Of a stretch of 64,000 nt of DNA, positions 2,509 through 63,051 are shown piece after piece. The notes below the pieces were generated by a model. That model saw only the letters and a list, made by a program, of their open reading frames with translations. It made no database searches and had not been told where the DNA came from. Numbering within the stretch: the stretch's first letter is position 1; the number at the start of each line of letters is the position of its first letter. The position numbers and the translations under genes were made by a program. Origin of the DNA: Siphonodentalium dalli (taxonomy: Eukaryota > Mollusca > Scaphopoda > Gadilida > Siphonodentaliidae); the NCBI GenBank assembly GCA_032622095.1, contig CP136061.1, positions 42,039,797 through 42,103,796 of the forward strand, in the 5' to 3' direction.

Positions 2509-2640
2509 TCAGCTGGACTTCTTCATTCTCTTTATTTTGAAGTTTATATTCATTTCCGCAATCTTTCTTTTCTTCGCTTCCTTCTTATCCATATTTTTCT
2601 TGAGCTTTCTCTTGGCAGCGATTTGTGGGTTAGTGATGGT
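2509..2640 (-). CDS. UTP20: UTP20 terminal coding exon 22
   Basis: 132 bp, 43 codons plus TGA. It encodes [16 protein letters not shown], then [13 protein letters not shown] and ends KKSS. TNPxIAAKKKxKK and EAKKRK are the hallmark of the UTP20 tail and probably act in nucleolar localisation or RNA contact. The acceptor is TTGTAG. I saw no canonical AATAAA in the few hundred bases downstream, so the 3' UTR end is not placed. Confidence 0.95.
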   Translation of the reverse strand, partial: TITNPQIAAKRKLKKNMDKKEAKKRKIAEMNINFKIKRMKKSS

Positions 2641-5600
2641 CTACAACAAAGGAAATGAATATCATTCAAGATAAATAAGAGATTGCACCAGCAGTGCTGG
2701 CATACCACCCCACAGTGCTGGCATACCCCCCCCCCCCCCCCACAGTGCTGGCATACCCCCCCCCCCCCAATGTGCTGGCATACCACCCCACAGTGCTGGC
2801 ATACCCCCCCACAGTGCTGGCATAACCCCCCCCCACTGTGCTGGCATACCACCCCACAGTGCTGGCATACCCCCCCCCCCCCACAGTGCTGGCATACCCC
2901 CCCACTGTGCTGGCATACCACCCCAGTGCTGGCATACCACCCCACAGTGCTGGCATACCCCCCCCCACTGTGCTGGCATACCACCCCAGTGCTGGCATAC
3001 CACCCCAGTGCTGGCATACCCCCCACAGTGCTGGCATACCACCCCACAGTGCTGGCATACCCCCCCCCCCCCCCCCCCCACAGTGCTGGCATACCACCCC
3101 AGTGCTGGCATACCACCCCACAGTGCTGGCATACCCCCCCCCCCCCCACAGTGCTGGCATACCCCCAGTGCTGGCATACCCCCCCCCCCACCCCACAGTG
3201 CTGGCATACCCCCCCCCCCCCCCACAGTGCTGGCATACCACCCACAGTGCTGGAATACCCCCCCCCCCCAGTGCTGGCATACCCCCCCCCCCCCCCCCCA
3301 CTGTGCTGGCATACCACCCCAGTGCTGGAATACCCCCCCCCCCCCCCCCACAGTGCTGGCATACCACCCCACAGTGCTGGCACACCCCCCCCCCCCCCCA
3401 GTGCTGGCATACCACTCCACTGTGCTGGCATACCCCCCACTGTGTTCGTATACCCCCCCCCCACACTGCCGGCATACCCCCCCCCACTGTGCTGGCATAC
3501 CACCCCACAGTGCTGGCATACCCCCCCCCCCCCCCACACTGCTGGCATACCCCCCCCCCCCCCACAGTGCTGGCATACCCCCCCCCCCCCCCCCACTGTG
3601 CTGGCATACCACCCCACTGTGCTGGCATACCCCCCACTGTGTTGGTATACCCCCCTCCCCCCACACTGTGCCGGCATACCCCCCCCCCACTGTGCTGGTA
3701 TACCCCCCACTGTGCTGGCATACCACCCCACTGTGCTGGCATACCCCCACAGTGCTGGCATACCCCCAAAGTGCTGGCATACACCCAGGGTGGAAAATTC
3801 AAATATGGGCAGGTAGGAACCAAAATACTGAGGACCCAAGAGGGTGAATTCGGTGATGCTGTGTGGGGTAGCATCACTAAATTTACCCTCTGGTGAGCTC
3901 ATTCTGCACATGAGGGGAATGTTTAGGTATTGAAGCAATTCTCAGCCCTGGTATAAGTACTGCGGTGGGAGAAGGAAGATTTGAATGATTATTCCAGGCC
4001 CAGTTTTGAAAATGTATGCAGCATTACCAACCCCTCCCACCAGATTTTAAAATGAATAGCAGAATCCTCTTATATATGTATACTAGCCCATTCAAAAACC
4101 AAATTTCAAATCGATAGCTCTACCCGTTTCCGAGATCTGGTCTGCGCATGCGCGAAGCTGGCGTCGCACGGGCTCGGCGACCCGATAAAATTCGTATCCG
4201 GGGAAAGATACATTCACATAGCAAATTTCAAGTCGATAGCTCCACCCGTTTCCGAGATCTCGTCTGCGCATGCGCGAAGCTGACGTCGCACGGGCTCGGC
4301 GACCCGATAAAATTCGTATCCGGGGCAAGATACATTCACATAGCAAATTTCAAGTCGATAGCTCCACCCGTTTCCGAGATCTCGTCTGCGCATGCGCGAA
4401 GCGGGCGTCGCACGGGCTCGGCGACCCGATAAAATTCGTATCCGGGGCAAGATACATTCACATACCAAATTTCAAGTCGATAGCTCCACCCGTTTCCGAG
4501 ATCTCGTCTGCGCATGCGCGAAGCTGGCGTCGCACGGGCTCGGCGACCCGATAAAATTCGTGTCCGGGGCAAGATACATTCACATAGCAAATTTCAAGTC
4601 GATAGCTCCAGCCGTTTCCGAGATCTCGTCTGCGCATGCGCGAAGCTGGCGCCGCACGGGCTCGCCAATACGACAACCTGGTCAAACTACACACACGTAC
4701 AAAGTTTCGTCCCGATCGGTCGAGAATCATAGATTTGTATAAATGACAAACAGACAGACAAGACAGACAGAGGTCTTCAAAATATATATGAGATAAGAAA
4801 TAATCACATGGATCATTGGTGAAACTGATTTGGTGAACACAGACAGATTCAACCATAGAAACTAATTTGGTGAACGCAGTCCAATTCAATCATAGAAACT
4901 GATTTCCTTATATATTATTAAAGACATATTATGGACTTGTTCGGGTGCATGAAACTGATCAGTTAGTATTGAGGGACGATGCCAACTGGAGGAATGTGAC
5001 ATTCTACTAACATTGACGAAAATCTCGAGCAAATAGACCATTACCACTCCATCGTCGGAACCATGCTCAATTGTAAATATTTACTACTCGATTTGGGATG
5101 CATCTATCAGCGATATATTAACGAAAACGATTTCATCATCAAGAGTCACTGCATTTAAATAATATATAAGAATGACGGTGAGTGCTGTGTGTCAATTTGG
5201 ATATAATATTTGTAAAAATAACTACTTTGAACAAGATTATTCTCCATTTCTATTTATCACCCTACTGGTGTGCTTCACATCACTTAAAAGCTATAGCGTG
5301 CTTCCAATTAGTTTATTTAAATATTACAATCTATAGTGTGTTTCCTATTAGTCGATATAAATCTTACATCTATAGCACGTTTCCTCTTTCTGATGTCTTT
5401 TCTCTCCACTCTGAATCTCACTATGTCCGAATAAAGCTTGGTGAATGTTTCCGTATCAATGATTTTCTTCATAATGCTGATCACCTCCTTGGCCAATGTT
5501 CTCAGGCTCTTGTCTGAAAAAGAGATTTATAATAAAAACAAAAGCATTGCTACTCGCTAGGGCATGACAAAATATGACCGTGGTAATTCCAACAAAGGGC

Positions 5601-8600: not shown

Positions 8601-10687
8601 TTGGCAAATTTGGCAAGTGGCAGCGCGAACCCTGCAACTTTAGTCTGCTGATTAACTCTGGACAACACAGAGTGTGAAAGTTACGAATGAGTAGCAGCCT
8701 TATCTACTGCTGACTTTAGTGTCTCAAGAGTTTGGTAGCCCAGGGGTTAGAGTGTCAGACTTATAATGGTGTTAAAAACACCGGCATGAGTTTGTGCCCG
8801 CCGGTGGACTACCGTCTCCACAAAAGTGGCTTGGCCGGATTGAACGCTGTAGAGCAACAAGCAATTTCAAATCTCACGCCAAGTTGTGACCCTTGAGGAA
8901 AGGTCACTTGTACTGTGCTCGCTTCGTCGGACCTAGATGAGAAATAGCGACCTGGTCATTCGGTAAGTGTAAGCCACTCTAGTAAAGTGCCTAGTGACGA
9001 TGCAACCAAGTAACCCTACAAGAATTATCATCTGGAAACAAAGTAGACTAAAATTTGACAAAGACCCAAAGATATCATTAATTGATACAAAAACTACATT
9101 TTGAGCCAATGTATTCAAGATGTACAAATGTTTGTGGTGATCAAACAATCCTAACTAATATTATGATCCAGGGACCAAAACAATTTTTCTAAATTGAAAA
9201 ATTCACTAAAATGGCAGTCTTTATTGATTTTAACCCTTTCATCATGGGAGCTGCACTGGTGCAGCATTCAAAATCCTGTGGTAGTGCATTCTCTTAGATA
9301 AGAGTCTCCCATAGGGAGCCTCCCATATATAAGAGAATGCATTGGCACAGAGTATATTTGCAAAATTTAGGAAGCTCCAGTCATGGAAGGGTAATTGGAG
9401 ATATCCACGAGACAAACCTCACATTGACAGTTACTTTGGGGTCATATTATATGGGCAAGGGAATGCATTTTGTATTTATCTATCTACTGGTCTACAACTG
9501 ACTGATATTGCTCACAACGGATCATAGAACATAAACATTTGAATATAAAGGGCAGTTAATCCAAGGTGTTCTAGGCTGTTATATTATATTGCTTTGGTGT
9601 TGCCTTTATCTTGACATTTGTAAAATGCAATGGGGCAGATTGCTCTGGACAATATTAGTGAAGTTTCCACTTCTGGAGTCCAAGACAGGGGTACATCTAC
9701 TGTAGGCCCTGGATACGAGCATTCCGCTGCCAATGTATTATGGGTATTACAGAACAATTGGAGATACCCACGAGACAAACCTCACCTTGACAGTGACTTT
9801 GGGGACATGTATGGCCTCAAAATTCGCTTCTTTGATAACTTTCTGCATGAGCCAGCCAAGAGATAATTTGACATCTTTAGAATCATTTGTTGGCTCTGTT
9901 TTCGGTATCTGTTCTAATCGTCTCACAACTTTTGCCAAGAAAACCAAATTTTTCACAACCTGAAAAAAGTGAATTATTCCATTTATTCAAGCATAGCGGG
10001 CTAGCATCACCAAATTCACCATCTGGGAAACTCATTCTGCAAATGACAGGCACACTATTTCAAGACTTGAATTTATTAAATTCCTATGTGTGATTTAACT
10101 TGATTTCTCGAGTGATTATATTCAACTATTGCATTAATAATTATGCATTATACAGTACTGCCCTAATTAATCGACTGCTCAACCACAGCAGAATTATGGG
10201 TATATGGCTTGTTGCCATTCATCGGAAAGCTCTCCCTGAGAGCTTTCCGCTGAATGGCAACAAGCCATATTTCCGACTAAATCCTGAAAAGTTACCCATA
10301 ATTCTGCTGTGGTTAAGAAGTCGATTACTTAGAGCATTACTGTAGGTATAAATTAATGGCAGTATTATTTGGATTTCTGGTAAATTGGATGCTTACAGTG
10401 TTCGCGCTGGACCGAAAAAAAGTTTAGCCAAAAGTTTAGCCAAATGAAAATTTTATTAGCCAAATGAAAAAAACTTTAGCCAAATGTTTTTTGGCCAAAT
10501 TAAAAAACACTTTGGCCAAATTAAATCATCGTTTTCTGGTCGGTTCACAATTAATGACTAAAACGTAAAATCTAACAGACACAGGTAAAATACACAATAA
10601 TTTAAATAATTTTGATGAACTAGAAGTATTTTTATATATATCATTTATTAAAAATTTATTAATCTTTATGTGAAAGAGTGAATTGGT

Positions 10688-10734
<47 letters not shown>

Positions 10735-16700: not shown

Positions 16701-19700
16701 TTTGATAATAAGTTCAACAAACTACACTTATTATCTGAACATTTGCCAACAAACTACTCATCAATGAGTATTCATTATAGAGAGGGTTAATAAGGGAACT
16801 ACTCATCAATGAGTATTCAGTATAGAAAGGGTTAATAAGAGAACTACTCATCAATGAGTATTCAGTATAGAGAGGGTTAATAAGGGAACTACTTGTCAGT
16901 GATAGGGTCCTGCGAATATTCGATTCGATTCGAAAGTCAAATTCGATTCGAATTAGAGTCGAAATTGCAACTCGAAATTTCGAATATACACTGGCGGAAA
17001 AGTAGGCTGTTTACGGACAAGTACACATGTCGATCTGAGCTGTTTCTGTGCCAATCAATTCCAGAAATGTATGTATATATGAACCTTATAATTCTTATTG
17101 TACATCGCGAATGATAAATATAAGTATAGCCAGCAATTAGCCACTATAGGACGACTGAATTCTAGCTTTCAACATGGTAGCCAAAAGCTCCTGATATCGC
17201 CGATGGACCGACGACGTGTGTAAATTCTAATAGCTAAGCGCGCTGCACACGATACGATATATATCTTACGACAAATATCTGGCACCGGTTACGGGTCGAA
17301 TCGTAGCGTGTGCGGTGGAAAATCGTACAACATTTTGTCGCACGATCGGCCCCGCAAGGAATAAAATAATTTTGATTTTCTACGATCGAGTCGTGCGATT
17401 TATTCGAAGTAGCCAATCAGATTCAACTACTAATATGATCATGCGGCGATCACATGTTTTATTTCGCAACAACATGGCGTCCAGCGTGTCCTTCAACTTG
17501 AGTTCAAGTTGGTTAGCAAAGTCATTAGCAGGATATTTTGGACGGCGGAATATATTCATGCCTCTGCCATACAACTATAATTGTTGAATACAAAACTAAA
17601 CAGAATAGGTGGACTGGACATCAGCAAATTGGTGTCTATATAATATCTGATTGTGAATGTGTGCATGTGGGGAATTAAATCAGGTCTATGGACTTTTTTC
17701 GTCTATAGCACTACAAACACTTGCAATATTAATATTTATTCGTATAAAATATCTGCGATAAATACCAATATAGACCTATACCTCGTTATTAACAACCCAT
17801 TGCATTTACAAGAAAGTAAACATCCAGATTGTACGGTCCGATCACATCGTGTGCGGTGATCTACCATGCACAAGGGGTAAAACAGAAGTCGCACGACTAA
17901 AATCGGACAGTGTGCGCACACATATCTTACAGTCGCAAGGGTCTGCGACAAATATCGTGCAACAAATATCGCTCCGTGTGGGGCCCGTTTATGAGACTGA
18001 ACAACCGCTAGTGTTATCCACCATCTGCCCGTCTCAGATTCCGCGTTATCTAATATCGCTGAGAATGTAAACAACACATGTTCCCGGCGTCGAAAAAAGT
18101 GCATTTTGGCGGTGTTTTCTTTATTGACTTTCAGTTTCGGAGCGTTCTTTGACACCTGACAAAATGTCGTCCATTATTCATGTTTATTTTAAACATGACA
18201 AAAATGCAGGCAGTTCAGGGACTGACACGTGTGATGAATGCAACATGGTGTGTAAATCGCAATCGTCTGGGACAACCACCCACCTATGGAATTTATCTGT
18301 CCAAGAAGCATCCAGCACTACATAAACAGGCTACCCTGCGACTGTTGTTGCATCTTTAAGTTTATAACGGGTGTTTCCGAATGCCGATTTGCATGTACAT
18401 GCAAATTGTACAAATTTCGCGTGATTTTAGTGGTTTAGTGGTTATATATTAATCGTCGTGACGGCCGCATGGACGTTTTAATCTGTATTTTTTCTCGCCA
18501 ATTTTCAACTGAAGTTAATAGTATCGCAAACGACGGTTCATCGCAACATAAGTTATGATGGAACTTTTCATGCATGTAGTTCATAGAACGTATCACAAAT
18601 TGTTTAATCATTGACAAAACATGCCTAATTGAGAATGCAACACACAGGTATGATTCGATTCGATATTCGATTTCGTGAGTTCGATTCGATCAAAATCTCC
18701 AATTCGCAGGACCCTAGTCAGTGAGTACTCAGTATACAAAGGGTTAATAAGGGAACTACTGGTCAGTGAGTATTCAGTATAGAAAGGGTTAATAAGGGAA
18801 CTACTCGTCAATGAGTATTCAGTATAGAAAGGGTTAACAAGGTAACTATTTGTCAAAGAGTATTTAATATAGAAAGGGTTAATCAAATTACATTGAAATA
18901 AACTGTAGCATTCTGTGGCAGATAAAATTTATAAAATTGGGCCGATTCTAATTACATGAATGTTACCTTCTCGTACCGACCGGGTTCCAGTTGCTGCTCT
19001 AACACGGGTAAAAGATTGGGCAGATGTCTATCAAATTGAGCTGATTCAACTTGAGCGAACAAACCAACAAGTTGAGCGGCAAGATTTCTGTGATTCACCT
19101 GCAGAAGAGATATGGTGGTTTGAATTGATGTAGGTTATCCCTTTACCCAACAAAACGGCCAAATAAAGCTTCAACAGCCTAAAATATCTTCGGTCTGTCT
19201 CAATAGAACCATACAAATATGGATATCATTGGAACCGACTCCTTGACCACATTGTGATAGTTATGCCCTGTGCCAATGCATTCTCTTATATATGCGAGTC
19301 GACCATAGGTCGCCTCGCATATATAAGAGAATGCATTGGCACAGGGCCCTTCTGTTGGGTAAAGGGTTAAGGCAGTAACAATTGAAATCAGATTAGGTCC
19401 ACATAATGTCTCCATGATTCTTTCCTAACATTGCATAATATAGGATACTCATATCTTCAGAATCTTAAATTCTGGGAACGAACTAATGTTGAACACTCTG
19501 CTGGGATGACTAGAACACACAATAAAGTAGATATTTTCCATCACATTTATATCCATATTACAGCAGCAACATCATTCTTATATACGACGTCTAGGACGGG
19601 TGGCGTGTAATAAACATAAAACAACATGTGTGTGAATGGGTTTGGTAATATGACACTTCTACCATCGCAGGAAGGATAGAATGCAGGAAGGATTCTATCC

Positions 19701-22700: not shown

Positions 22701-25700
22701 TATCATCGAGGAATATAATGCTGTCTCTGTCAGGGTATATTCATGACAAGTGTACCTTTTCTAGAAGCAGCTTTATAACCAGAGAGATCTGTTTACGACA
22801 TCGCATCGAGTCATCGTTCAACAACGCCGCAGATAAAGGAATGAAGAATAATCCGGCATGCTGCATCAAAACATCCTGTAAAGAGAGAGAATGATTAAGA
22901 AATTTATTATATTTTCATCAACTTTGTACGTTAAAATATAAATCGTATCCCCACTGCCAGAAGACTGAACGTTTTATTCCACTCGCAAGATACTATCCTA
23001 CTCACAGCGCTACTTCATGATGTCAAATTTGTGAGTCAATCGGTATCCTTGCAAATTATTTTAATTGAAAAGGCTGGTGAGGTTGTAGCTTTAAGAACGT
23101 ATTAAGTCTATCCAAGTGTTGTATTATGGTCTGGGTAGTAACAAACTTGTGTATAAAATATAATAAACACAAAAGTTCAGGCCTGGCAATATGGCGCGAG
23201 CGATTTTATCGCTCGCGCGTCGCCCGCGCAATTTCAATTTGGCGTGGGCGATATATCGCTCGTGCAACATTCACTACCCAACATGCTATGTTAACAGTCG
23301 GCTACCACCGGTATATCTAATTAGGCCAAACCATGCTACACACCCGTCACCAGTGACAGACTGACGATTACATGACCTAACTGTGAAATTTGTATTGTGT
23401 TCACAGTACGATCCTAATAAAACAACACTAGCTGTGACCACTGGCGAAAACTCCTCTCACATGCCATAATCATGCATTGTTCATCACATAAAGACACTAG
23501 CCAGGTTCCTATCTAAACACCGCAGAGTGTGAAACACACCTGCAATTTATAAGGCCTTACTAACTACCTGCATGCCCCAGTGTGAATCGGACCGTGTCGG
23601 TGACTAAGGTAACACACTCATTGGATCGCTTGCTACACACATCAAAGCATGCTGTGTATACATTTTTTTAAACATTCAGACTACAGGCTACAGTTGAGTT
23701 CAAAATCAATTTCGATAACAAAATGGTACCACTACTAGTAATTTGTGTCATTGCTCCGATTGATTAAGATAATATATGAAATTAGGCCCTATATACGGAC
23801 TACCTATTATTAATTTGAATACATTTGTTCTCAAAGTCTGTGTAGGCCTATACATACAACAATGCGACTTTTGGAAAATCTACTGTATGCAGTTATGCTT
23901 ATTCTTATCTTAGTACACCTGCACGTAGGCCTATGCATGCATCCAGATTATTGACAGATCATGTATGGGTGAGTGACGTGTTTGATGTCAAATTATGACA
24001 CGGTAGGCCTACACATTGTTATCCATTTATACAGTAACGTAACCCGTCATTGATTCTGGTTAGGTAACTTGGTCACTCAGGTATAAAGGAACAAACACAA
24101 ACATATCATGTACATGTATGTACAATATATGCATGGCATAATGATTGATTCTGGTTAACTTACAATAATATCTCACCATGATGTCACCTCATACATGTAT
24201 TATACAGTACTATAACAGCATGTAATATATGATATAAATATATTATAATGATTGATTGATTCTGGTTAACCATTAGGTCACTTGGATCAGGCATAAAGGA
24301 ACAAACACAATACCATATATGCAAGACATGGTATAACATTTATAAAAGTACTTTATTAAACATTAATAAGTTATAAAACATTCATTGATAATTTCACAAT
24401 TAATATATGATTATAAATTAATTAAATTTAAATATTATCACTTACCACATAATAAGTTATATGCAATATGACATATGTCAGTTTACTTGTATTTCATATG
24501 TTACAACATAAATACCCCATAAAACAGAAATTGCCCCTGGCCTGCAAAATATTTTAGCCCCTGCAAAGTATTTTGGCGAGGGCGAATTTTAGCCCCTGCA
24601 GATTTTTCATAAGGCCAGCACTGAAAGTTAACTGTTCTGAGTTGCGTACTGTTTTCTCCTCTCGTGATATGCAAGGATTATTTTTACTCGGCTAGTGCCT
24701 CATAAAATAATCCTCCACATCTCATTTAACTAAACCTGTACGCTACTCGGAACATTTAACTAAACCTGTACGCTACTCGGAACATTTAACTAAACCTGTA
24801 CGCTACTCGGAACATTTAACTAAACCTGTACGCTACTCGGAACATTTAACTAAACCTGTACGCTACTCGGAACATTTAACTAAACCTGTACGCTACTCGG
24901 AACATTTAACTAAACCTGTACGCTACTCGGAACATTTAACTAAACCTGTATGCTACTCGGAACATTTAACTATTATCCATATATCTTCTTCAAGCTCCAA
25001 ATTAAACCAAGTAAATGAATAAACTAAGATCAGTCCATAAACTCATCATACTACCGATGTAACTTGAGTCGTATAAGTAGCGGTTGCCTATAATACAGAC
25101 TATAATATAGTATGATTCATGTATTATTGTAGACCTAAGAAAGTGATGGGGACCCCATAGCATGGACTTCATGTAGAATAGGACAAAGCTGTCTTACTAT
25201 TGGATATAGAGCGACAAATACAGAGTTATAGTCTGAAGTGAGATAGAACAAGAGGTGTGCACTCGAGTGCTAGCATACCCCCAGGAGATTGCATACAAAA
25301 AATTATTGAAATCGGTTCATAGTTGTTCGAGTTATGAGGTAGGACGGACAGACGGACACACGGAGGGAGAAAGTGTGACGGACTGCTCGACGGACGCAGT
25401 CAATCCAGTATACACCCCCATTTTCTTCGAAAGTGGGGGTATAATTATATCTTAGGCAAACAAATGGAGTCATATGGAACTGGTTAAACACTATACTGAG
25501 TGCTGGGAATAGTGCCGATTCTCGATATATACATGTATGATACTTACAGCGGGAAAACTAGAGAACATGGTGGCGAGCATTTCCAGTGCCGATTCTCGAC
25601 CAGTTTCCAGCTCGTACTCCAGCTGGGCAACGTAAAAATCAAGGTGACCTTTGAGGTGCTTACCAACGGGATAGTACAACAGATACTGCATCACAACCTG

Positions 25701-37700: not shown

Positions 37701-40700
37701 GTCATAGATATCCGTGCTTACAGTAAAAGTCTTCATACTTACTCGTATAAGATTGAACGCCGACGCCTGTCGTCCATGGTCATATATATCCTCCTCACAG
37801 AATGACAGTAGTAACTGCAGCTGACTTTCATCAATGGTGTAATATTTCACAGCTCGTATCAGGATTGTCACAGACTACAATTAAAAAATAAATGTAGTTC
37901 AAATAAAAGGTCGCTGACCACGTGTCTCCTGAAAAGGTCTCTTTTTAGTATTGGTTCAGATCCAATCACACAAACAAAAGTTATCATCCGGAAACCTCAA
38001 TACGACAAAATTCTAAGTAAAAAAAGGCCCATAACTCCAGCATAAATGGGCAGACCGAACCCATATTACTCATAAACTCACATATCAAATTTGGTTTCGA
38101 AACGATGGCCCAAAATAAAGTTATCATCCAGAAACTTTCCGAACGGACGGACAGATTCTAAGTCGAAAAGGTGCCATGACTCCAGTAGAAATGGGCGGAC
38201 CAAACCCATATTACCCATATTCAAACTTGTCCTGTATTTGGAGCTGATAACCTCACATACCAAATTTGGTTCAGATAAAATCACACAAACAAAAGTTATC
38301 ATCCGGAAACCTCAAAACGACAAAATTCTTAGCCAAAAAGGGGTCATAACTCCAGCAAAAATGGGCAGACCAAACCCATCTTACTCATAATCTCACATAC
38401 CAAATTTGGTTTTGAAACAATAGCCCAAAATAAAGTTCTCATTCGGAAACTTTCACCAAATTTGTTTTTTTCGGGGGACAATTAGCATCAAGTCCAGAAG
38501 CCAATCTGGTAAATGGCTATAAGCAGCAAAACGGAAAGTTCGTATAAACTGCAAGCCTTCAAATAGTGAGTCCGTCATTTGCAGAATGAGGTCCCTAGAG
38601 GGTGAATTTAGTGACACTATTCCAGACGGCAGACTAGCATTACCAAATTCACCCTCTGGGTACCTCATTCTGCTTTGGTCTCAACTGCTATGGAAGACCT
38701 AGAAGCAGATTGAAGTTTCCCAGTTGAAATTGTTAATGTTCACCCTTTAGTCACCTCGATTATGAATTTTATCTTCTGCAAATAAGAGGAGATAGAAACT
38801 GAACAGAATTAACTAATAACACAGTCAATTCTAGATTCTCGTAAATATTCTCGCAAATTACCCTGGATTCTCGCGAAAAAGTATGTTTGGATTCTCACAA
38901 AATCAGATGAAATATATGCCCTGTGCGATAAACTAGCGAAAATGATTTCGCCATCGAGAATCACTGTATTTAATTAAAGTAAGAATGAAAGAAGGTGGTT
39001 GTTGTCAATTTGGATATAATATTTGTAAAAAATACTACTTTGAGAAAGATTAGTCTCCATTTCAATTTGATCACCCTACCGGAGTGTCATATCACTTTAA
39101 TGATATATAAACTCACCTTAAACGTGGTCGCTATAAGTTCTGTGTTATAAACTCACCTTAAACGCGGTCGCTATAAGTTCAGTGTTATCTCCCTTTGCTG
39201 CTCCTGGCGATGCATAATTCTTCAGAATATGGAATATTCCGTTTGCGATTTGTTTAATATTGTCTTTCATTGATGGGAGTTCCAGCTTAAGAAACCACGC
39301 CATACACCGTAAACAGAAGGAGTTCATCTGCAATTTAAATCATAATGAAATCAGAAGCTACGCCATATTAAACAAATAAATTTATAAAAAGATATATAAG
39401 AAAATAGCATTAAATTGGTAAAACGTGGCTCAGGCAACAGTAATTTAATAGCCTGGTATAGAACCCCTCATACAACTTTTTCATCAATAATTGAGAATGC
39501 ACTGGCTTACAAGGTCAATGTAAATATTGTTAGGCCAATGTATTCCTTGTATATGCGAAGTTCCCTATGCGTTGGAACAGGGTTTTCGTAAAACTACAGG
39601 AAGCTGCAGTCATGGACGAGGTAAGATTATACAAGTTTCCATGAAAAGAATGCCAGCACTCAAACATTTGAGAAAATCCATAAATAATTCATGTGCGCTC
39701 AAAAGTATTGTTGTATAAAACAACAAAATATTCATATATAGAGGTGAATATGGACTGACCTTAACATGTTTAGCCAGCAGTCAGTCTGAGGATCGGAACA
39801 AGCGGGTCGAGAAGTGTTAGATGTATAGAGGTGAATATGGACTGACCTTAACGTGTTTAGCCAGCAGTCAGTCTGAGGATCGGAACAAGCGGGTCGAGAA
39901 GTGTTAGATGTATAGAGGTGAATATGGACTGACCTTAACGTGTTTAGCCAGCAGTCAGTCTCAGGATCGGAACAAGCGGGTCGTCGAGAAGTGTTAGATG
40001 TATAGAGGTGAATATGGACTGACCTTAACGTGTTTAGCCAGCAGTCAGTCTGAGGATCGGAAAAAGCGGGTCGAGAAGTGTTAGATGTATAGAGGTGAAT
40101 ATGGCTGACCTTAACGTGTTTAGCCAGCAGTCAGTCGGAGGATCGGAACAAGCGGGTCGAGAAGTGTTAGATGTATAGAGGTAAATATGGACTGACCTTA
40201 ACATGTTTAGCCAGCAGACACTCAGTGAGGATTGGTACAAATGGGTCGAGAAGTGTTAGATGTTCCTCCGTCTTCAAGTCCACGATACCCTTCCTCAGAC
40301 ATAGATGCAGAAGCTGGAAGAGAAACAGAGGTACAGTAATGCTTTAAATAATCGACTCCTTAACCACAGCAGAATTATGGGTAACTTTTCAGGATGTAGT
40401 CGGAAATATGGCTTGTTGCCATTCATCGGAAAGCTCTCAGCCATAATTCTGCTGTTGTTAAGGAGTTGATTATTTAGAGCATTACTGTAGTGTATGTGTT
40501 CATAACTTACTCATTGAGAATATTCAAGCCTTGAAATAGTGTCTGTCATTTGCAGAATGAGGTCCCCAGAGGGTGGATTTAGTGATGCTACCCTGCTCAG
40601 TGGGCTACCATCACAAAATTCACCCTCTTGGGACCTCATTCTGATTAGGCCTCATCTTATGGTTAGTATCTATAGTCTCAAAATAACATTGTTTTAGTTA

Positions 40701-46700: not shown

Positions 46701-49700
46701 ATATTTTCAGCGACATTTTTGAATCACCATAAAATTTATCGTTTACAGTCTTATCTATATAGCAGTGCATGTATTATGTATTATTAATATGTTTTAATTC
46801 TTATTATACCGTGTTTGATGTTATTTATATTTTATTTTTGGTTGTGCGTCAACAACTCTTACTGGCGAAGTCAATACATTCCAATCGTAGTGCGATTTTC
46901 TATAAACTGAACACCTCTCTAAACCGAACAGAAGGGCTGGTCCAAAGGGTGTTCAGTTTGTAGAGGTTTTACTGTATACTTTTTCCGAAAGTCGCGCGTT
47001 ATTCCGTTTCCAATTCCAGAATAGCAATGAATACAAATGTCGCAACATTTTATTGGAACCCAACAATCTTGTTCCAAGTTGTACTTTTTATAACTTCTAT
47101 GCGTCTTTCTGGGACATAAAATGCTCACAGAATGGTAGTTCAGGTATTCGTCAACCTATTTCGCTACCGGGAAAAATTCAAAAGCAAATATTGTAAGGTG
47201 TATTTTAATATTATAAGGTGTATTTTAATATTATAAGGTGTATTTTGGAGTGCAAACTGCTATGTCACTTTAAATTAAAGCTGATAGGGTAACTTTCATG
47301 TCAGTCAGACTTGTGTCTGTCAATCTATATTGCTAGCTCAGGTTTTCGCTAAAAATGACAGAAATATTACCTGGTGACACACACCAATGCCTATACGTGA
47401 TTAGCCACTGTAGCATACAGAGATCAGTATCATTTGGCTGCATACCTGATTTAGTGGGATACGTACCTGTTTTAGAGGGATATGTATACAAACCAGTTTT
47501 AGTGGGAATTCTACCTGATTTCGTGGCTGGATGAGGTTCCCTACCTAACTGTTTTAGTGGCTGGATGAGGTTCCCTACCTACCTGTTTTAGTGGCGTGAT
47601 GAGGTTCCCTAGAGCAGCAGGACTAACATATCTAGAGACGGTGGCATACGAGTCGTAACTTTTAAGCGATCTCGCTTCTAAAACTTTTGTGGTAATTCCT
47701 TCTACTTCCTTTTCGACTCCGACTGTGCCGAAGATTTCTTCATTAAAAACCTAAAATAGAACAATCAAAACATGAAAAGTCGCCAGGTGTTTCAATCATT
47801 GTCGTACATAGTACATTGCATACAGAAAAGAACTCATTCTTGCCTCAAATTCTTTTGTTGCATAATTTCCATGTTCAGGTAGTCTCCCATTAAATGGACA
47901 TGGCTCATTCCAAACAAATGCGTCGATATAGTGCAGAAGATACGTGTTTTGTTTCTTGCATTTTTCAGTAAAAAAGTCAGCGGTCATGTAAAAATCAGAC
48001 TATTGGAAGAAAATCTAGATGCCGTCACACCCAAGCCTGCAAATAGCGTGTGTCATTTGCAGAATGAGGGATAGCATCACCAAATTCACCCTCTGGAGAC
48101 CTCATTCTGCTTAGGCCTCATCTTCTGGGAGTATGGTATCTATAGTATCAAATTAATATTGTTTTTAGTTACATTTCCCTTCTAGGAAGTTTCTATATCC
48201 CCTAATTTGCAGAAGATAAAATTCATAATTGAGGTGCCCAATGGGTAAACATCACCAACTTCAACAGGGGAACTTCAATCTCTGATCCTAGGTCTGCCAT
48301 AGCAGGTGAGGGCCTGAGCAGAATGAGGTCCCCAGAGGGTGAATTTAGTGATGCTAGCCCTCTGGGGACCTCATTCTGCAAATGACAGGCACACTAAATG
48401 AAGAGAAAGCAGTGCATGTAGTTTTTTTTTACTACTTTCAAGTTAAGATAACACAATATTCCTTTTCCTTGAAAGAATATTTTAGGACATGAGGAAAATA
48501 GAATTTAAACAAACCTCAATAAGACTTTTAAGGCAGCAGTCCAGCCCTCCTGGTTTTAAGTGATCTGCGAGCTTCGTCAGAATCTTACTGATGGTGTATG
48601 ACAGCACATGGAGCTAGAATAAAGAAATAATGCAAGAACTTTATAATGAAAGTGTCAATGACACTGTAGCTCAACTTGGAAAGGGAATAATTTAATATAT
48701 TACAGTCAATGGAGCGATTAGGAATGTGGAAAGTTGAATGTCTAATACTAGTTTATAGACATGAAGAGAAAAGTAAAAACCAAGATGGCTGCTGGCGGCC
48801 ATGTTTTCGGCCGAATGACCCCAAAATGAGTCGTTCCCATCTACATGTCATCGTTAACATCAATGACAAATTTTATGACGATCAGACTAAAGGTACGACC
48901 TGTAGCCCATGCTAAAGAATTTAGTCATACAAAGAGTAAAATCCAAGATGGCTGCTGGCGGCCATGTTTTTTGGCCGATTGACCCCAAAATGACTCGTTC
49001 CAATCTACATGTCATTGTTAACATCCATGACAAATTTTATGATGATCAGACTAAAGGTACGACCTGTAGCCCGTGCTAAAGAATTTAGTCATACAAAGAG
49101 TAAAATCCAAGATGGCTGCTGGCGGCCACGTTTTTTCGCCAAATGACCCCAAAATTACTCGTTCCCATCTACATTTCAACATTAACATCCAGGACAAATT
49201 TCATGATGATCAGACGAATAGTACGACCTGTGGCCCGTGCTAATGGATTAAATTTTGAAATCCAAGATGGCCGCTGGCGGCCATGTTTTTTGTCCGAATG
49301 ACCCCAAAATGACTCGTTCCCATTTACATTCCAATTTCAACAGCCATGAAAAATTTTATGATGATCAGACTAAAGGTACGACCTGTAGCCCGTGCTAAAG
49401 GATTTAGTCATACAAAGAGTAAAATCCAAGATGGTTGCTGGCGACCATGTTTTTTGGCCGATTGACCCCAAAATTACTCGTTCCCATCTACATGTCATTG
49501 TTAACATCCATGATAAATTTTATGATGATCAGACTAAAGGTACGACCTGCAGCCCGTGATAAAGAATTTAGTCATACAAAGAGTAAAATCTAAGATGGCT
49601 GCTGGTGGCCATGTTTTTTGGCCGAATGACCCCAAAATTACTCGTTCCCATCTACATGTAAATATTATCATCCATGACAAATTTCATGATGATCAGACAA

Positions 49701-52700
49701 TCAGTACGACCTGTGGCCCGTGCTAATGGATTAAATTTTGAAATCCAAGATGGCCACTGGTGGCCATGTTTTTTGTCCGAATGACCCCAAAATGACTCGT
49801 TCCCATCTACATTCCAATATCAACAGCCATGACAAATTTTATGATGATCAGACTAAAAGTAGGACCTGTAGCCCGTGCTAAAGGATTTAGTCATGCAAAG
49901 AGTAAAATCCAAGACGGCTGCTGGCGGCCATGTTTTTTGGCCGATTGACCCCAAAATGACTCGTTCCCATCTACATATCAACATTAACATCCAGGACAAA
50001 TTTCATGATGATCAGACGAATAGTACGACCTGTGGCCCGTGCTAATGGATTAAATTTTGAAATCCAAGATGGCCGCTGGCGGCCATGTTTTTTGTCCGAA
50101 TGACCCCAAAATGACTCGTTCCCATTTACATTCCAATTTCAACAGCCATGAAAAATTTTATGATGATCAGACTAAAGGTACGACCTGTAGCCCGTGCTAA
50201 AGGATTTAGTCATACAAAGAGTAAAATCCAAGATGGCTGCTGGCGGCCATCTTTTTTGGCCGAATGACCCCAAAATGACTCGTTCCCATCTACATGTCAT
50301 TATTAACATTCATGAAAAATTTTATGATGATCAGACTAAAGATACAACCTGTAGCCCGATTGACCCCAAAATTACTCGTTCCCATCTACATGTACATGTC
50401 ATTGTTAACATCCATGATAAATTTTATGATGATCAGACTAAAGGTACGACCTGCAGCCCGTGATAAAGAATTTAGTCATACAAAGAGTAAAATCTAAGAT
50501 GGCTGCTGGTGGCCATGTTTTTTGGCCGAATGACCTCAAAATTACTCGCTCCCATCTACATGTCAATATTAACATCCATAACAAATTTCATGATGATCAG
50601 ACAATCAGTACGACCTGTGGCCCGTGCTAATGGATTAAATTTTGAAATCCAAGATGGCCGCTGGCGGCCATGTTTTTTGTCCGAATGACCCCAAAATGAC
50701 TCGTTCCCATCTACATTCCAATATCAACAGCCATGACAAATTTTATGATGATCAGACTAAAAGTAGGACCTGTAGCCCGTGCTAAATGATTTAGTCATGC
50801 AAAGAGTAAAATCCAAGACGGCTGCTGGCGGCCATGTTTTTTGGCCGATTGACCCCAAAATGACTCGTTCCAATCTACATGTCATTGTTAACATCCATGA
50901 CAAATTTTATGATGATCAGACTAAAGGTACGACCTGTAGCCCGTGCTAAAGAATTTAGTCATACAAAGAGTAAAATCCAAGATGGCTGCTGGCGGCCACG
51001 TTTTTTCGCCAAATGACCCCAAAATTACTCGTTCCCATCTACATATCAACATTAACATCCAGGACAAATTTCATGATGATCAGACGAATAGTACGACCTG
51101 TGGCCCGTGCTAATGGATTAAATTTTGAAATCCAAGATGGCCGCTGGCGGCCATGTTTTTTGTCCGAATGACCCCAAAATGACTCGTTCCCATTTACATT
51201 CCAATTTCAACAGCCATGAAAAATTTTATGATGATCAGACTAAAGGTACGACCTGTAGCCCGTGCTAAAGGATTTAGTCATACAAAGAGTAAAATCCAAG
51301 ATGGCTGCTGGCGGCCATCTTTTTTGGCCGAATGACCCCAAAATGACTCGTTCCCATCTACATGTCATTATTAACATTCATGAAAATTTTTATGATGATC
51401 AGACTAAAGATACAACCTGTAGCCCGATTGACCCCAAAATTACTCGTTCCCATCTACATGTACATGTCATTGTTAACATCCATGATAAATTTTATGATGA
51501 TCAGACTAAAGGTACGACCTGCAGCCCGTGATAAAGAATTTAGTCATACAAAGAGTAAAATCTAAGATGGCTGCTGGTGGCCATGTTTTTTGGCCGAATG
51601 ACCTCAAAATTACTCGCTCCCATCTACATGTCAATATTAACATCCATAACAAATTTCATGATGATCAGACAATCAGTACGACCTGTGGCCCGTGCTAATG
51701 GATTAAATTTTGAAATCCAAGATGGCCGCTGGCGGCCATGTTTTTTGTCCGAATGACCCCAAAATGACTCGTTCCCATCTACATTCCAATATCAACAGCC
51801 ATGACAAATTTTATGATGATCAGACTAAAAGTAGGACCTGTAGCCCGTGCTAAATGATTTAGTCATGCAAAGAGTAAAATCCAAGACGGCTGCTGGCGGC
51901 CATGTTTTTTGGCCGATTGACCCCAAAATGACTCGTTCCAATCTACATGTCATTGTTAACATCCATGACAAATTTTATGATGATCAGACTAAAGGTACGA
52001 CCTGTAGCCCGTGCTAAAGAATTTAGTCATACAAAGAGTAAAATCCAAGATGGCTGCTGGCGGCCACGTTTTTTCGCCAAATGACCCCAAAATTACTCGT
52101 TCCCATCTACATATCAACATTAACATCCAGGACAAATTTCATGATGATCAGACGAATAGTACGACCTGTGGCCCGTGCTAATGGATTAAATTTTGAAATC
52201 CAAGATGGCCGCTGGCGGCCATGTTTTTTGTCCGAATGACCCCAAAATGACTCGTTCCCATTTACATTCCAATTTCAACAGCCATGAAAATTTTTATGAT
52301 GATCAGACTAAAGGTACGACCTGTAGCCCGTGCTAAAGGATTTAGTCATACAAAGAGTAAAATCCAAGATGGCTGCTGGCGGCCATTTTTTTTGGCCGAA
52401 TGACCCCAAAATGACTCGTTCCCATCTACATGTCATTATTAACATTCATGAAAATTTTTATGATGATCAGACTAAAGATACAACCTGTAGCCCGTGCTAA
52501 AGGATTTAGTCATACAAAGAGTAAAATCCAAGATGGCTGCTGGCGACCATGTTTTTTGGCCGATTGACCCCAAAATTACTCGTTCCCATCTACATGTCAT
52601 TGTTAACATCCATGATAAATTTTATGATGATCAGACTAAAGGTACGACCTGCAGCCCGTGATAAAGAATTTAGTCATACAAAGAGTAAAATCTAAGATGG

Positions 52701-55700
52701 CTGCTGGTGGCCATGTTTTTTGGCCGAATGACCCCAAAATTACTCGTTCCCATCTACATATCAACATTAACATCCATGACAAATTTCATGATGATCAGAC
52801 GAATAGTACGACCTGTGGCCCGTGCTAATGGATTAAATTTTGAAATCCAAGATGGCCGCTGGCGGCCATGTTTTTTGTCCGAATGACCCCAAAATGACTC
52901 TTTCCCATCTACATTCCAATATCAACAGCCAAGACAAATTTTATAATGATCAGACTAAAGGTACGACCTGTAGCCCGTGCTAAAGGATTTAGTCATACAA
53001 AGAGTAAAATCCAAGATGGCTGCTGACGGCCATGTTTTTTGGCCGAATGACCCCAAAATGACTCGTTCCCATCTGCATGTGATTATTAACATTCTTGACA
53101 AATTTTATGATGATCAGACTAAAGGTACGACCTGTAGCCCGTGCTAAAGAATTTAGTCATACAAAGAGTAAAATCCAAGATGGCTGCTGGTGGCCATGTT
53201 TTTGGGCCGAATGACCCCAAAATTACTCGTTCCCATCTACATGTCAATATTAACATCCATGACAAATATCATGATGATCAGACGAACAGTGCGACCTGTG
53301 GCCCGTGCTAATGGATTGAATTTTGAAAACAAAGATGGCCACTGGCGGCCATGTTTTTTGTCCGAATGACCCCAAAATGACTCGTTCCCATCTACATTCC
53401 AATTTCAACAGCCATGATAAATTTCATGATTATCAGACTAAAGGTACGACCTGTAGCCCGTGCTAAAGGATTTAGTCATACAAAGAGTAAAATCCAAGAT
53501 GGCTGCTGGCGGCCATGTTTTTTGCCCGAATAACCCAAAAATGACTCGTTCCCATCTACATGTCATTGTTAACATCCATAACAAATTTCATGACGATCAG
53601 ATGAACAGTACGGCCTGTAGCCCGTGCTAATGGATTGAATTTTGAAATCTAAGATGGCCACTGGCGGCCATGTTTTTTTTCCGTATGACCCCAAAATGAA
53701 TCATTCCGGTACAAATGTTGATGTCAACAGCTATGACAAATTTCATAATGATCCGATCAAAGGTACGTCCTGTAGCCTCTATTGTTGACGCTGCCCGTAC
53801 ACACGCACACACGCACACACGGACGACGGACGACAAAGCCATGGCAATAGCTCAAACTTTACAAAGTAAAGTTGAGCTAATAATGATGATCACGATCGGC
53901 GAGATTTGGCGATTCATGATGTGACAAAGACTCAATAATATTACCAGGGACGTTCGGCGAGATTTGGTGATTCATTATGTGACAAAGACTCAATAATATT
54001 ACCAGGGACGTTCGGCGAGATTTGGTGATTCATTATGTGACAAAGACTCAATAATATTATCAGGGACGATCGGCGAGATTTGGTGATTCATTATATGACA
54101 AAGACTCAATAATATTATCAGGGACAACAGACAAATCATAGCATTATGTGATGGCAACCATGTAGCCACACAAGATATATCTTAAATATTTCAAAACAGC
54201 AGTCCGCTTTAGCGGGCACATTGTAATTTACGTTCACCACCACAGCCTGCTATTATGAGCAGTGACGTTCGTTTCCTGTTCCGCGATTTTAATCAGCATG
54301 ATGTCATTTCTAAAAATAGAATCATCTATAATTAACACTTGATCATGAGTAACATGTTTGGCGTTTAGTATTTCCTGGTTGTCAAAATGGTATATGTGAA
54401 CAATTCTCGGTGAAAATGAATATATATTACGATGAATTCTCCAACGCAGAGTTTTACGAGAGACTTAATGTCACTGATTTTGTACTCGACAAGCTTATTG
54501 AAAATGACAGCGGTCGCAGTGCTGTTTTTGTCCGAATGAACTCAAGATTGCGAGGACGATCAAAATCAAGATACCGATGACAATTCTGCAGGATGCGGAC
54601 GTATTCATCATCTGCCTTTCTTTTTCTAGGAGAATCTGACTTTAGAATCGAAAGAAGGCTATTGTATGATATGCAGACCAAGGCAGAACCTGACAACTCC
54701 TGAGATTGATTTCATCTCAGGTGTGCATAGGTAAGCGGACAATATGCTAAACCCATATCAATAATAACCGAATGCATGTATACCTGGTATCCACGGGTTA
54801 GACTAGTCCTCAGCTCCGTTAATAGGTACGGGAAGTATCGAGGTCCCAGCGTGTCGACGATCTGTAACAGAGTGTCTCTTGCTGTTTCTCGAATGTTGTA
54901 TGATCGTGACTTCAGAAAGTTACAAACTTTAATTAGGATACTGAAAATAATAAAGATCTATAGTATATACCTTGGCATTCCATCTAACTAAATTCTGCAT
55001 CTAACCTAATTATCAGCGAGTATCCAGTATCCGAGTGTATACACCCAAGCCTTCAAATAGTGTGTCCGACATTTGCAGAATGGGTTCCCCAGATGGTGAA
55101 TTTAGTGATGCTATCCCGCACAACTCTGGGAACCTCATTCTGCCAAGGCCTCACATCTTCGGGGAAGTATCTATAGTCGACATTGTTTTTAAGTTACTTT
55201 TTCCCCTTCTGCTCAATTTCTATATCCCCTAATTTGCAGAAGATAAAATGTATAATCGAGGTGTCTAATGGGTGAACATCACCAACTTCAACTGGGGAAC
55301 TTCAATCTGATTCTAGGTCTCCCATAGCAGTTGAGGCCTAAGCAGAATGAGGTCCCAGAGGGTGCATTTGGCATCACTAACCCTCTGGGGACCTCATTCT
55401 GTAAATGTAAGACACAGGCTTGCATACACATATCCAGGGATGAAATTCCATGCCTTTTCCATGATTTTCTGTAATTTTCCATGAACTCGAAGTGATGAAC
55501 ACTTAGCAAGGTGAAACTTCAAAATTAATGTGAGATGAATAGCTCACTTTGACAACCGGAAGAAGTTATAACCAAAACTCACGAAAAACACCTCCAAGCC
55601 TGCAAATAGCGGGTCTGTCATTTGCAGAATGAGGTCCCCAGAGGGTGAATTTAGCTGTGCGGGATAGCATCACTAAATTCACCCTCTGGGGACCTCATTC

Positions 55701-58700
55701 TGCAAATGACAGACACGCTATTTGCAGGCTTGCACACCTCTGGAAAATAATTATTGTTACATAGCCTCTTTTTTGCGACTGATTATTGAATAATAATATT
55801 GATAATATTTCGCATATTTTCTGGGCTTAAAAATGTGTTGTTTCGCTAATGAACAATAGTGGTTACAGTTAACAAAGTCCAGAAATTGTATTGTGTAATT
55901 TTGTCACAAATAAATGCTAATCAGACTCATTATCGCTTATAACTATGTAATAAAACAATAAAAACAATAAAAACAATCAATCTGGGACATTTGATGTTCG
56001 GAGCATAACTATGGGAACACAATACTGATCTCTATCGCTATAACGTATCGTCTGAATGGTCTGCTCTAAAAATACAATAAAGTGTCCCATTTAATCATCT
56101 CATTTTATAATAAAATATTTGAAATAAAATCAATATTATTTGATAGAAGCCTTTCGGGACAGGAGTCTTCAATTCATAATTATTATTTTATATCCTCGAA
56201 CTGAACAAAATTAAATGTGTACTAGTATATCAATAGTACAAGAAAATAACAGCTACTAACTATAAAGATCACACATCTACCTATTTAGTTAGGATAAGAG
56301 CAAGTGTGCACTGTGACGCTATTGTTTTTTTGTTATATTCATTATATATTACATTATGACAAATTGTAACAAAAAGAAATAAAATTATAATAAAAAAAAA
56401 GGTACAATTTAGGGGCGTGTAACTGAGTGCTATTTACTTACCCTGATAAGAGGGATGTTTAACTAAGTGCTATTTACTTACCCTGGTAAGAGGGTGTTTA
56501 ACTAAGTGCTATTTACTTACCATGGTAAGAGGGGTGTTTAACTAAGTGCTATTTACTTACCCTGGTAAGAGGGGTGTTTAACTAACTGCTATTTACTTAC
56601 CCTGGTAAGTGGTGTTCTAATGATTTCTGAGGGAGGAACTTGAGTAATTTGACCATCGCCATCGCTATGGGAACCCGTAAAATCTCCTCATCCTCAGGGT
56701 ACTTAGTACCGGCCAGTTTATGAACATCGTCTCCTCGAACCTGGATAAGAAGTAAAGTCGTTTACAAGCTGCAATATGAACAGGAACCAACATCGAGTAC
56801 ATATAGGCAGTACAATGCATTAACCCTTATACAAGCTTTAACCCTTTCATGATGGGAGCTGCGCTGGTGCAACATTAAAGATCCTGTGCCAGTGCATTCT
56901 CTTATATATGAGAATGCACTGGTTCATAAGGTAAAGGTAAATATTTTTAGGCCAATGCATTCTCTTATATATGCGAGGCTCCCTATGGGAGACTCACAAT
57001 ATATAAGAGAATGCACTGGCTTACAAGGTCAAGGTAAATGCGAGGCTCCCTATGGGAGTAGGGTCCTGCTAATTGGAGATTTTGATCGAATCAAATATCG
57101 AATCGACTCGAGGAAATCGAACCGAATATCGAATATCAAATCAAATCATACCTGTGTGTTGAATTCTCAATTAGGCATGTTTTTGTCAACGATTAAATGA
57201 TTTCTGAAACGTGCTATGAACTTCCACGAAGTTCCGTCGTAACTTATGTGGTGATCAACCGTCGTTCGCGATACCATTAACTTCAATTGATAATTGTCGA
57301 GAAAAAAAAACACATTAAAACGTCCATGCGGCCGTCACGACGATTAGTATACAGTTAACCTGCTAAACGGATTATCGGAACTAAAATCACGCGAAATTTG
57401 TACAATCTGCATGTACATGCAAAATTGCAAATCGGCATTTGGAAACACCCGTTGTTATAAACTTGAAGATGCAACAACAGACGCAGGGTAGCCTGTTTAT
57501 GCAGTGCTGGATGCCTCTTGTAGATGGGTCGTTGTCCCAGATGCTTGCGATTTATACACCATGTTGCATTCATAACACGTGTAAGTTTCTGCACTGACTG
57601 CAGCTTAATTTATCATTGTAGCGATTGCCGGTCATCATTATTTCCTATTTTCGTTGTACTAAATATTTCTATCATAACAGTCCGTAATTCATCTCAAAGT
57701 CATTATTTATCAGTTACGCATAAATACCTAATTATAAGGCGTAATTCCTATACGTATTCTACTAGTTATCACTTCGTATTATTTCGCATTTTATATTATT
57801 ACGCAACTTCATTCGTAGCACATTGTTTGTAAACAAATCCTTGTGTACCGCGGGAAATCCCACGTGCACGTGCGAGTTACCATTGGTGCAGCGACCCTAA
57901 CGATTGGTGGCGCCACCACCCCGGCTATAAATACGAGCCAACCGTTGGAGCCGTTGCCCTGTTGTCACTCGCATGCCATGGTTTACGTGATTACGTTTAC
58001 TCCAACTGCCATAACGTAAACAGTAATCAGCTGTGGTTAATTTCTATAGTAATTCGTAGTATTTTGTCGTTGGACTTTTAATACTATATCTAGTATTCTT
58101 GGGTATTTCCTTTCGGGAAATTGGTTCTTTAAGGTGATTATCTATTCCGATTACGCTTTCCGTACTTTGATGGGATATTTAGCGTATTTTTATGCAGTTT
58201 TAGCCTAATTTAGGGACTTTTTGGACTTAGTCTATTTGGTGGAATGTTTTTACCTGTGAGGAATTAGGGGTATTTCAGCTATTCCGGACCATTCAGCAAG
58301 GAGCCTAGCCATACCTATCTATACTACTGCGAGGAGATGTAGCTAAAATCCACAGAAGGTTGATGTTGACCAAATCGAGGGCTCAGATTGAAGATTACCA
58401 CCATGGAATGTGATGACACTGATGTGAGTTGTGACTGGTCAGACTAATGAATTTAATATATTGCACTGAATTGCTGCTAGTGCTATAGCCCATGGTGATG
58501 ATGTGGTCAGAAGCTAGTCCCTTGCTATATAAATCCTGAAGCTGCGTGATGGTTACTATTTGGTCGATTGCCGTGCCGATGTCACTGTCAGGTATTGTGC
58601 TCATCCCGGATGTATCCCTCCAATCAGTCCATTATCAGGTCGTCCGGCACTATCCAGGGTCAACCAGTCATGTAAGGTTACCATGCTCCTATTATACTCC

Positions 58701-63051: not shown

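Follow-up and report, generated by a model that had tools for sequence, protein, structure and literature searches.

The window analysed here is a stretch of 64 000 nucleotides (C1:42039797-42103796) from a genome of 2.23 Gb in nine contigs, and its minus strand carries the C-terminal third of the UTP20 gene. The exon translations match human UTP20 (PDB entry 7mq8_SP) with an E value of 4.6e-142 over residues ~1752 to 2733 of 2785. A total of 21 exons could be placed, 20 of which bear a donor in the window. The gene and the repeats at its exon edges are as follows, with exons numbered in the direction of transcription.

2512-63051, minus strand: C-terminal third of UTP20, 21 exons placed from their translations, the last coding exon near 2512-2640
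62777-62905, minus strand: donor array of exon 1 (63051-62888), diverged, 51 bp unit (18 exon + 33 intron) x2.5, from TRF
61933-62227, minus strand: 42 bp x7 array in intron 1, displaced by ~0.7 kb, with 19/20 bases of the exon 1 donor edge
56411-56609, minus strand: donor array of exon 2, 40 bp unit x5.0, GT kept by 4/4 spare donors, from TRF
47511-47611, minus strand: donor array of exon 5, 34 bp unit (29 exon + 5 intron) x3.0, from TRF
39737-40263, minus strand: donor array of exon 8, 87 bp unit (67 exon + 20 intron) x6.1, from TRF
39106-39188, minus strand: donor duplication of exon 9, 40 bp unit (32 exon + 8 intron) x2.1, from TRF
37328-37791, minus strand: donor array of exon 10, 78 bp unit x5.9, in frame, the second donor being reached without a stop, from TRF
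27588-27740, minus strand: 33 bp x4.6 array ~1.9 kb upstream of exon 12, with 45/45 bases of the exon 12 intron-exon junction
25698-25730, minus strand: acceptor unit of exon 12 (25697-25548) present once more, 33 bp, immediately before the exon
25511-25525, minus strand: exact 15 bp copy from the interior of exon 12, just past the exon 12 donor
18917-18948, minus strand: displaced and weak copy from the interior of exon 15, just past the exon 15 donor (24/32 alignment columns)
9393-9445, minus strand: donor edge of exon 18 copied once at a displaced position (49/53 bases, local alignment)
5284-5385, minus strand: donor array of exon 20, 40 bp unit x2.5, from TRF

Seven of the 20 UTP20 donors in the window thus lie within TRF arrays that repeat the exon end, the donor and the start of the intron as one block. 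The initial annotation, made from the letters of the window, had described such arrays at exons 1, 2, 5, 8, 9, 10 and 21, and TRF finds an array at all seven; by position, its exon 21 is probably our exon 20, where neither spare donor keeps the GT in register. It had also reported that the acceptor side of exon 12 is repeated, as is indeed seen both in the adjacent 33 bp copy and in the array upstream, and that exon 19 has a displaced copy of its donor edge, which we recover at exon 18, probably the same exon. Apart from the numbering of these two exons, the initial description stands. If the interior arrays are taken as background, each as a single event, 0.54 donors would be expected to be crossed by chance instead of seven of 20; the Poisson P of 1.7e-6 is nevertheless biased, because the window was picked for this very pattern. 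With arrays at least 90% identical, five donors are crossed compared with 0.13 expected. The window contains further repeats: a C-rich array of ~21 bp units (CCCCCACAGTGCTGGCATA) beside the last UTP20 exon (2692-3787), a run of 46 G (10688-10733) and, in the intron between exons 3 and 4 (48772-53777), about 30 copies, 74% alike, of a ~164 bp unit, which at a guess is a diverged satellite or the core repeat of a transposon.

The 70 kb directly upstream of the window (L001-L007), which correspond to residues ~972-1718 of the human protein and leave out the N-terminal part, yielded 15 recognised exons; a few of their edges are approximate and some small exons are missing from this count. One donor array (48 bp x8.9; 0.47 expected) and three acceptor arrays (84, 82 and 56 bp; 0.47 expected, P = 0.012) are found there, so that over the two stretches of UTP20 TRF detects arrays at 8/35 donors and 3/35 acceptors, to which exon 12 is added by alignment. 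The introns of this part of the gene also contain an array of ~93 copies, 93% alike, of a 41 bp unit (L005:5389-9191) and, in four TRF rows, a palindrome-like and MITE-like element of ~200 bp (TRF 103 bp x1.9, GCAGAATGAGGTCCCC...), which recurs at L164:711-905 and L167:710-905. A reading frame at L005:704-916 resembles, in diverged form, the exon that follows directly (LNSWEDKRL...) and is perhaps an old tandem duplication of a whole exon.

The frequency of such arrays beyond UTP20 was measured in a sample of 160 exon hits from the kinesin, SNF2, myosin and ABC families, chosen before the sequence had been seen and fetched with 500 bp on each side; splice scores around the match ends served to fix the exon edges. 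TRF arrays cross the donor of 12 of these exons (7.5%, 95% interval 3.9-12.7%; L037, L040, L056, L058, L064, L068, L072, L077, L082, L087, L133 and L166) and the acceptor of four (L110, L111, L150 and L154). BLAST, run without TRF, returned copies in the downstream intron for 12/160 exons and upstream copies for 6/160. At L085 and L028, weaker upstream copies of the exon start that TRF missed (87.5% and 79% identical, respectively, by BLAST in gene orientation) are possible older acceptor duplications. Three arrays close to an edge were not counted as straddling it (gene-oriented coordinates): a 21 bp x21.9 array that begins 9 bp past the donor (L106:631-1081), a perfect 31 bp duplication that begins 3 bp before the donor (L017:685-746) and a 40 bp x13 array that finishes at the acceptor (L081:1-523).

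The anatomy of the donor units was examined in 20 arrays (seven from the window, one from upstream UTP20 and 12 from the sample). The units are 30-95 bp long and combine 9-72 bp of exon (mean 36) with 5-33 bp of intron (mean 19); acceptor units measure 20-127 bp. Every one of the 20 donor units includes an exon part, and the arrays do begin inside the exon, as originally noted. The intron fraction of the unit, 0.376, departs weakly from uniformity (KS P = 0.04), and the breakpoint on the intron side falls within 33 bp of the donor in 20/20 arrays with units of up to 95 bp, an observation made afterwards. Nine of the 20 donor arrays have a unit length divisible by three, which gives no sign of an in-frame bias (P = 0.34). 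Identity to the functional copy is often 90-100% and in some arrays 75-88%, and the copy number at donors runs from about 2 to 15.6. MITE-like and tandem elements abound in the genome, and one might therefore think of a mobile element, or of a single spreading repeat, inserting at splice sites in the manner of introners. Yet the 20 donor units all derive, locus by locus, from the exon end and intron start at which they lie, and the periods differ. The arrays are thus independent of one another, in keeping with the initial description, and an insertion of this kind is very improbable, among the less likely explanations.

Once formed, the arrays appear to be inherited and to change in length. 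A 30 bp donor array is common to three close kinesin paralogs with 14.5, 11.5 and 14.5 copies (paralogs, not haplotypes), and the duplication at L133 is also present in its paralog L170; shared arrays with differing copies among paralogs argue for inheritance with changes of length. TRF detects no L133-type duplication at the same place in the 14 other myosin paralogs fetched, many of which are close copies of one another. In the exon 8 array of UTP20, the copies are 0.86-0.90 identical to the functional copy and neighbours are 94% identical to each other (TRF; one array). Among the myosins, eleven hits to the same exon, from closely similar muscle-type heavy chains, cluster at C4:274.2-275.5 Mb (G000). 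The best-scoring chains for the muscle myosin exons are 3i5f, 2ec6, 2os8 and 1dfk, chains of squid and scallop, so that the genome is most likely that of a mollusc or a relative.

We may wonder which donor the spliceosome would choose in such a row. The second donor, if used, leads to a frame shift or a stop in 15/20 arrays, and for this reason the exon-proximal donor is presumably the one in use, as judged from the reading frames; genes such as UTP20 would suffer otherwise. First-donor use should not be taken for granted, however, since in human OCT1 an 8 bp duplication of a donor causes 38-52% of minigene transcripts to be misspliced in cell lines, compared with 0.3-0.6% in liver, according to the portion of PMC8137991 on this variant. 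The GT is kept in 77/83 spare donors of the 20 arrays, and 65/83 equal or exceed the first donor in score. Moreover, the mismatches to the functional copy amount to 2.5% in the donor, 6.9% in the exon and 10.9% in the intron.

This preservation, together with the high copy numbers reached at donors, would be expected if selection kept the spare splice sites, as the initial annotation had suggested. Such sites might serve, for instance, as extra U1 sites that secure exon recognition or guard against premature polyadenylation in long introns. We find no positive sign of it. When only the columns that vary among the spare copies are considered, the donor is as variable as the rest (7/114 compared with 49/566 elsewhere, P = 0.46), which speaks against purifying selection on the spare donors. 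Compensation for weak donors fares no better, the array-bearing donors not being significantly weaker (P = 0.10). Most second donors would break the frame, and high identity is in any case expected of young arrays. Selection for spare donors is therefore improbable and, like the mobile element, one of the less likely explanations.

The question of whether exon edges are struck more often than introns depends on how an array is counted. The comparison fixed before the sample was fetched shifts pseudo-edges into the intron and shows no excess at the donors of the 160 exons: 12 are crossed compared with 11.1 expected, with four acceptors crossed. Over a range of thresholds, 8.2 to 11.5 are expected compared with 10 to 12 donors observed. 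Tandem arrays cover ~7% of the nearby intron positions, and a nearby copy is no commoner for exon ends (10/160) than for 40-base intron blocks (8/160 to 24/156). These results favour the plain alternative already raised in the initial annotation, namely that tandem expansion is rife in introns and hits edges at the ordinary rate, exon sequence being merely easier to recognise, as does the near-expected number of donor arrays outside the kinesins (two compared with 1.4). On the other hand, both the pseudo-edge and the block measures give long arrays more weight, since n copies in an intron enter the count n times. Because an exon edge is one ancestral point whereas an n-copy intron array offers n targets, each array should be counted once.

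We therefore hold the event count, in which each array is one duplicated unit counted a single time, to be the right measure, even though it was devised after the pseudo-edge result. It gives 11 donors compared with 1.7 expected (P ~2e-6) and four acceptors (P = 0.1), and among arrays at least 90% identical seven donors compared with 0.9. In a relocation count, also devised afterwards, all 60 arrays were moved randomly within their own regions in 20 000 trials with even margins for donors and acceptors: the 12 donors observed compare with a mean of 3.2 and were reached in three trials (P = 0.00015), while over the whole sample acceptors stay close to chance (four compared with 3.1, P = 0.38). 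The donor excess holds with an 8-base margin (11 compared with 2.8, P = 0.00005) and for arrays of at least 2.5 copies (ten compared with 1.5, reached in 0/20 000 trials). A count of left boundaries within 100 bp points the same way (11 donors compared with 4.7 expected). At least one interior array, that of L043, repeats the unit of L040 and is the tail of a donor array, so the test is conservative. Two other sources of an excess were discarded: GC content is not the driver, the GC-standardized expectation being only 0.87, and slower decay of a constrained copy does not account for an excess that persists among arrays at least 90% identical. The null models applied to the 160 exons thus disagree, the pseudo-edges showing no excess and the event and relocation counts showing one. 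The plain alternative stands in so far as expansion is indeed widespread in these introns, and sits poorly with the donors counted by event (expectations of 1.7 and 3.2 compared with 11-12, also for event-counted arrays at least 90% identical); as a full explanation we regard it as rather unlikely. Taken together, the data suggest that donors are frequently copied in tandem in this genome, and more commonly at exon edges than random placement would give.

The excess is unevenly distributed. In the relocation count of TRF arrays, kinesins have ten donor arrays compared with 1.8 expected and no acceptor array compared with 1.9, whereas SNF2, myosin and ABC genes together have two donor arrays compared with 1.4 (P = 0.41) and four acceptor arrays compared with 1.3 (P = 0.035). 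Donor arrays are present at 10/80 kinesin exons compared with 2/80 in the other families (P = 0.03), and at 0/40 SNF2 exons. In each half of the sample, one of the two exon edges appears to be struck in excess; by event count, the edge excess is clear at kinesin donors and weaker elsewhere. Among the 160 sampled exons, donor and acceptor arrays stand at 12 to 4, and in the 70 kb of UTP20 upstream of the window at 1 to 3. These two sets together have arrays at 13/175 donors and 7/175 acceptors, a contrast that is not significant (Fisher P = 0.25). The roughly 7-to-1 preference for donors first reported is thus seen in the window and in the kinesins (ten compared with none) and is not significant among the pooled exons outside the window; a strong bias of this kind characterizes the window and the kinesins, and is not established in general.

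This distribution bears on what is prone to duplicate. Exonic DNA as a whole, rather than the splice site, might be so, owing to chromatin, methylation or germline transcription, with only the duplications that cross an edge surviving selection. Such exon-wide proneness, which is one form of the explanation that we consider best, would fit units that hold more exon than intron (the means of 36 and 19 bp and the intron fraction given above), as well as the acceptor arrays in excess outside the kinesins and in the upstream 70 kb of UTP20 (three compared with 0.47). It sits less well with the whole sample, where donors exceed chance and acceptors do not, nor is GC content what drives it. Poorer tolerance of acceptor copies could explain this lack of an acceptor excess. 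We regard exon-wide proneness as quite possible, short of probable. The narrower form, in which the duplications arise from a process at the exon end, for example breaks or nicks at the 5' splice site where RNA polymerase has paused, draws on the intron breakpoint lying within 33 bases in 20/20 arrays, and we put it forward a little more tentatively still.

On balance, we lean towards the following reading: the arrays are boundary minisatellites, or 'mirages', in which exon ends or exonic DNA duplicate in tandem, the copies are tolerated and edges are struck above the intron rate. The starting event is a tandem duplication of 30-95 bp at the donor, which takes in the exon end, the donor and the opening 5-33 bases of the intron. 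Slippage or unequal exchange would then expand the pair of copies, up to 15 units. As suggested by the reading frames, the exon-proximal donor would stay in use, which would leave the duplication nearly harmless and able to be fixed. With an acceptor, the duplication would place a spare AG ahead of the genuine site, and splicing probably tolerates this less well. The excess itself is most likely mutational, exon ends or exonic DNA being prone to duplicate, and duplications lying wholly within exons would be purged by selection.

Mirages were described in amphioxus as minisatellites at the exon-intron boundaries of Adh3 (Canestro et al., 2002, as cited in PMC3087553); the passages of PMC3087553 devoted to them add the amphioxus globins BflGb6 and BflGb9 and suggest that mirages may be general in cephalochordates. 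To judge from sequence, our arrays fit this kind. In both, tandem units span the exon-intron boundary (here in 20 donor arrays plus the acceptor arrays), and both 5' and 3' boundaries are concerned (here 12/160 donors and 4/160 acceptors). According to the same passages, the amphioxus units range from tens to ~160 bp, compared with 30-95 bp at donors and 20-127 bp at acceptors here; many copies keep their AG/GT, as the GT is kept in 77/83 spare donors here, where the donor side was counted; and the copy number varies, which here refers to the kinesin paralogs only (14.5, 11.5 and 14.5). Mirages are further characterized by length instability between haplotypes or in the soma, by regular splicing that goes undisturbed and by inner copies that are homogenized to the exclusion of the boundary copy; the observations here that touch on these traits are the paralog counts, the reading frames that point to the first donor and the identities within the exon 8 array. 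The mirages treated there concern single genes, whereas the present arrays occupy 12/160 sampled donors, with a background comparison, in a 2.2 Gb genome whose muscle myosin is mollusc-like. What is new is thus the taxon, a first frequency and the comparison with background.

Other known systems come close in part. The relevant section of PMC2812944 reports that minisatellite units (mean 30 bp) vary at exon-intron boundaries in human segmental duplications; it is concerned with primate segmental duplications only and ties them to novel introns, whereas here conserved genes have an existing intron at the repeated edge. In intron gain by tandem genomic duplication, as presented in the pertinent parts of PMC4974935 and PMC2891723, a short exon duplication with splice motifs gives rise to a new intron; short exon-derived tandem copies with splice motifs are shared with our arrays, but here it is the edge of an existing intron that is copied. 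The OCT1 variant as set out in PMC8137991 is likewise a duplicated donor, although a single 8 bp polymorphism and no array. Introner-like mobile introns are related to one another across introns, a relatedness that is absent among the 20 donor units, each of which is exon-derived and locus-specific. Beyond these systems we recognized no further report of such arrays among the open-licence papers that our searches listed, whose silence is weak evidence.

Mirages had been described for a few amphioxus genes. Their presence at 12/160 sampled donors in what appears to be a protostome suggests that they are more widespread, as a trait of certain animal genomes. Each such row, with up to 15 near-identical donors, tests in nature which of them the spliceosome picks, and alternative splice sites and new introns may arise from it. 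Should the excess over the intron prove real and mutational, exon ends would be fragile in a way that still awaits an explanation. If, in addition, the sample is representative and a process at the exon end is at work, about one donor in 13 would have a row of spare copies at its side, from which new splice forms and introns could be built in this lineage.
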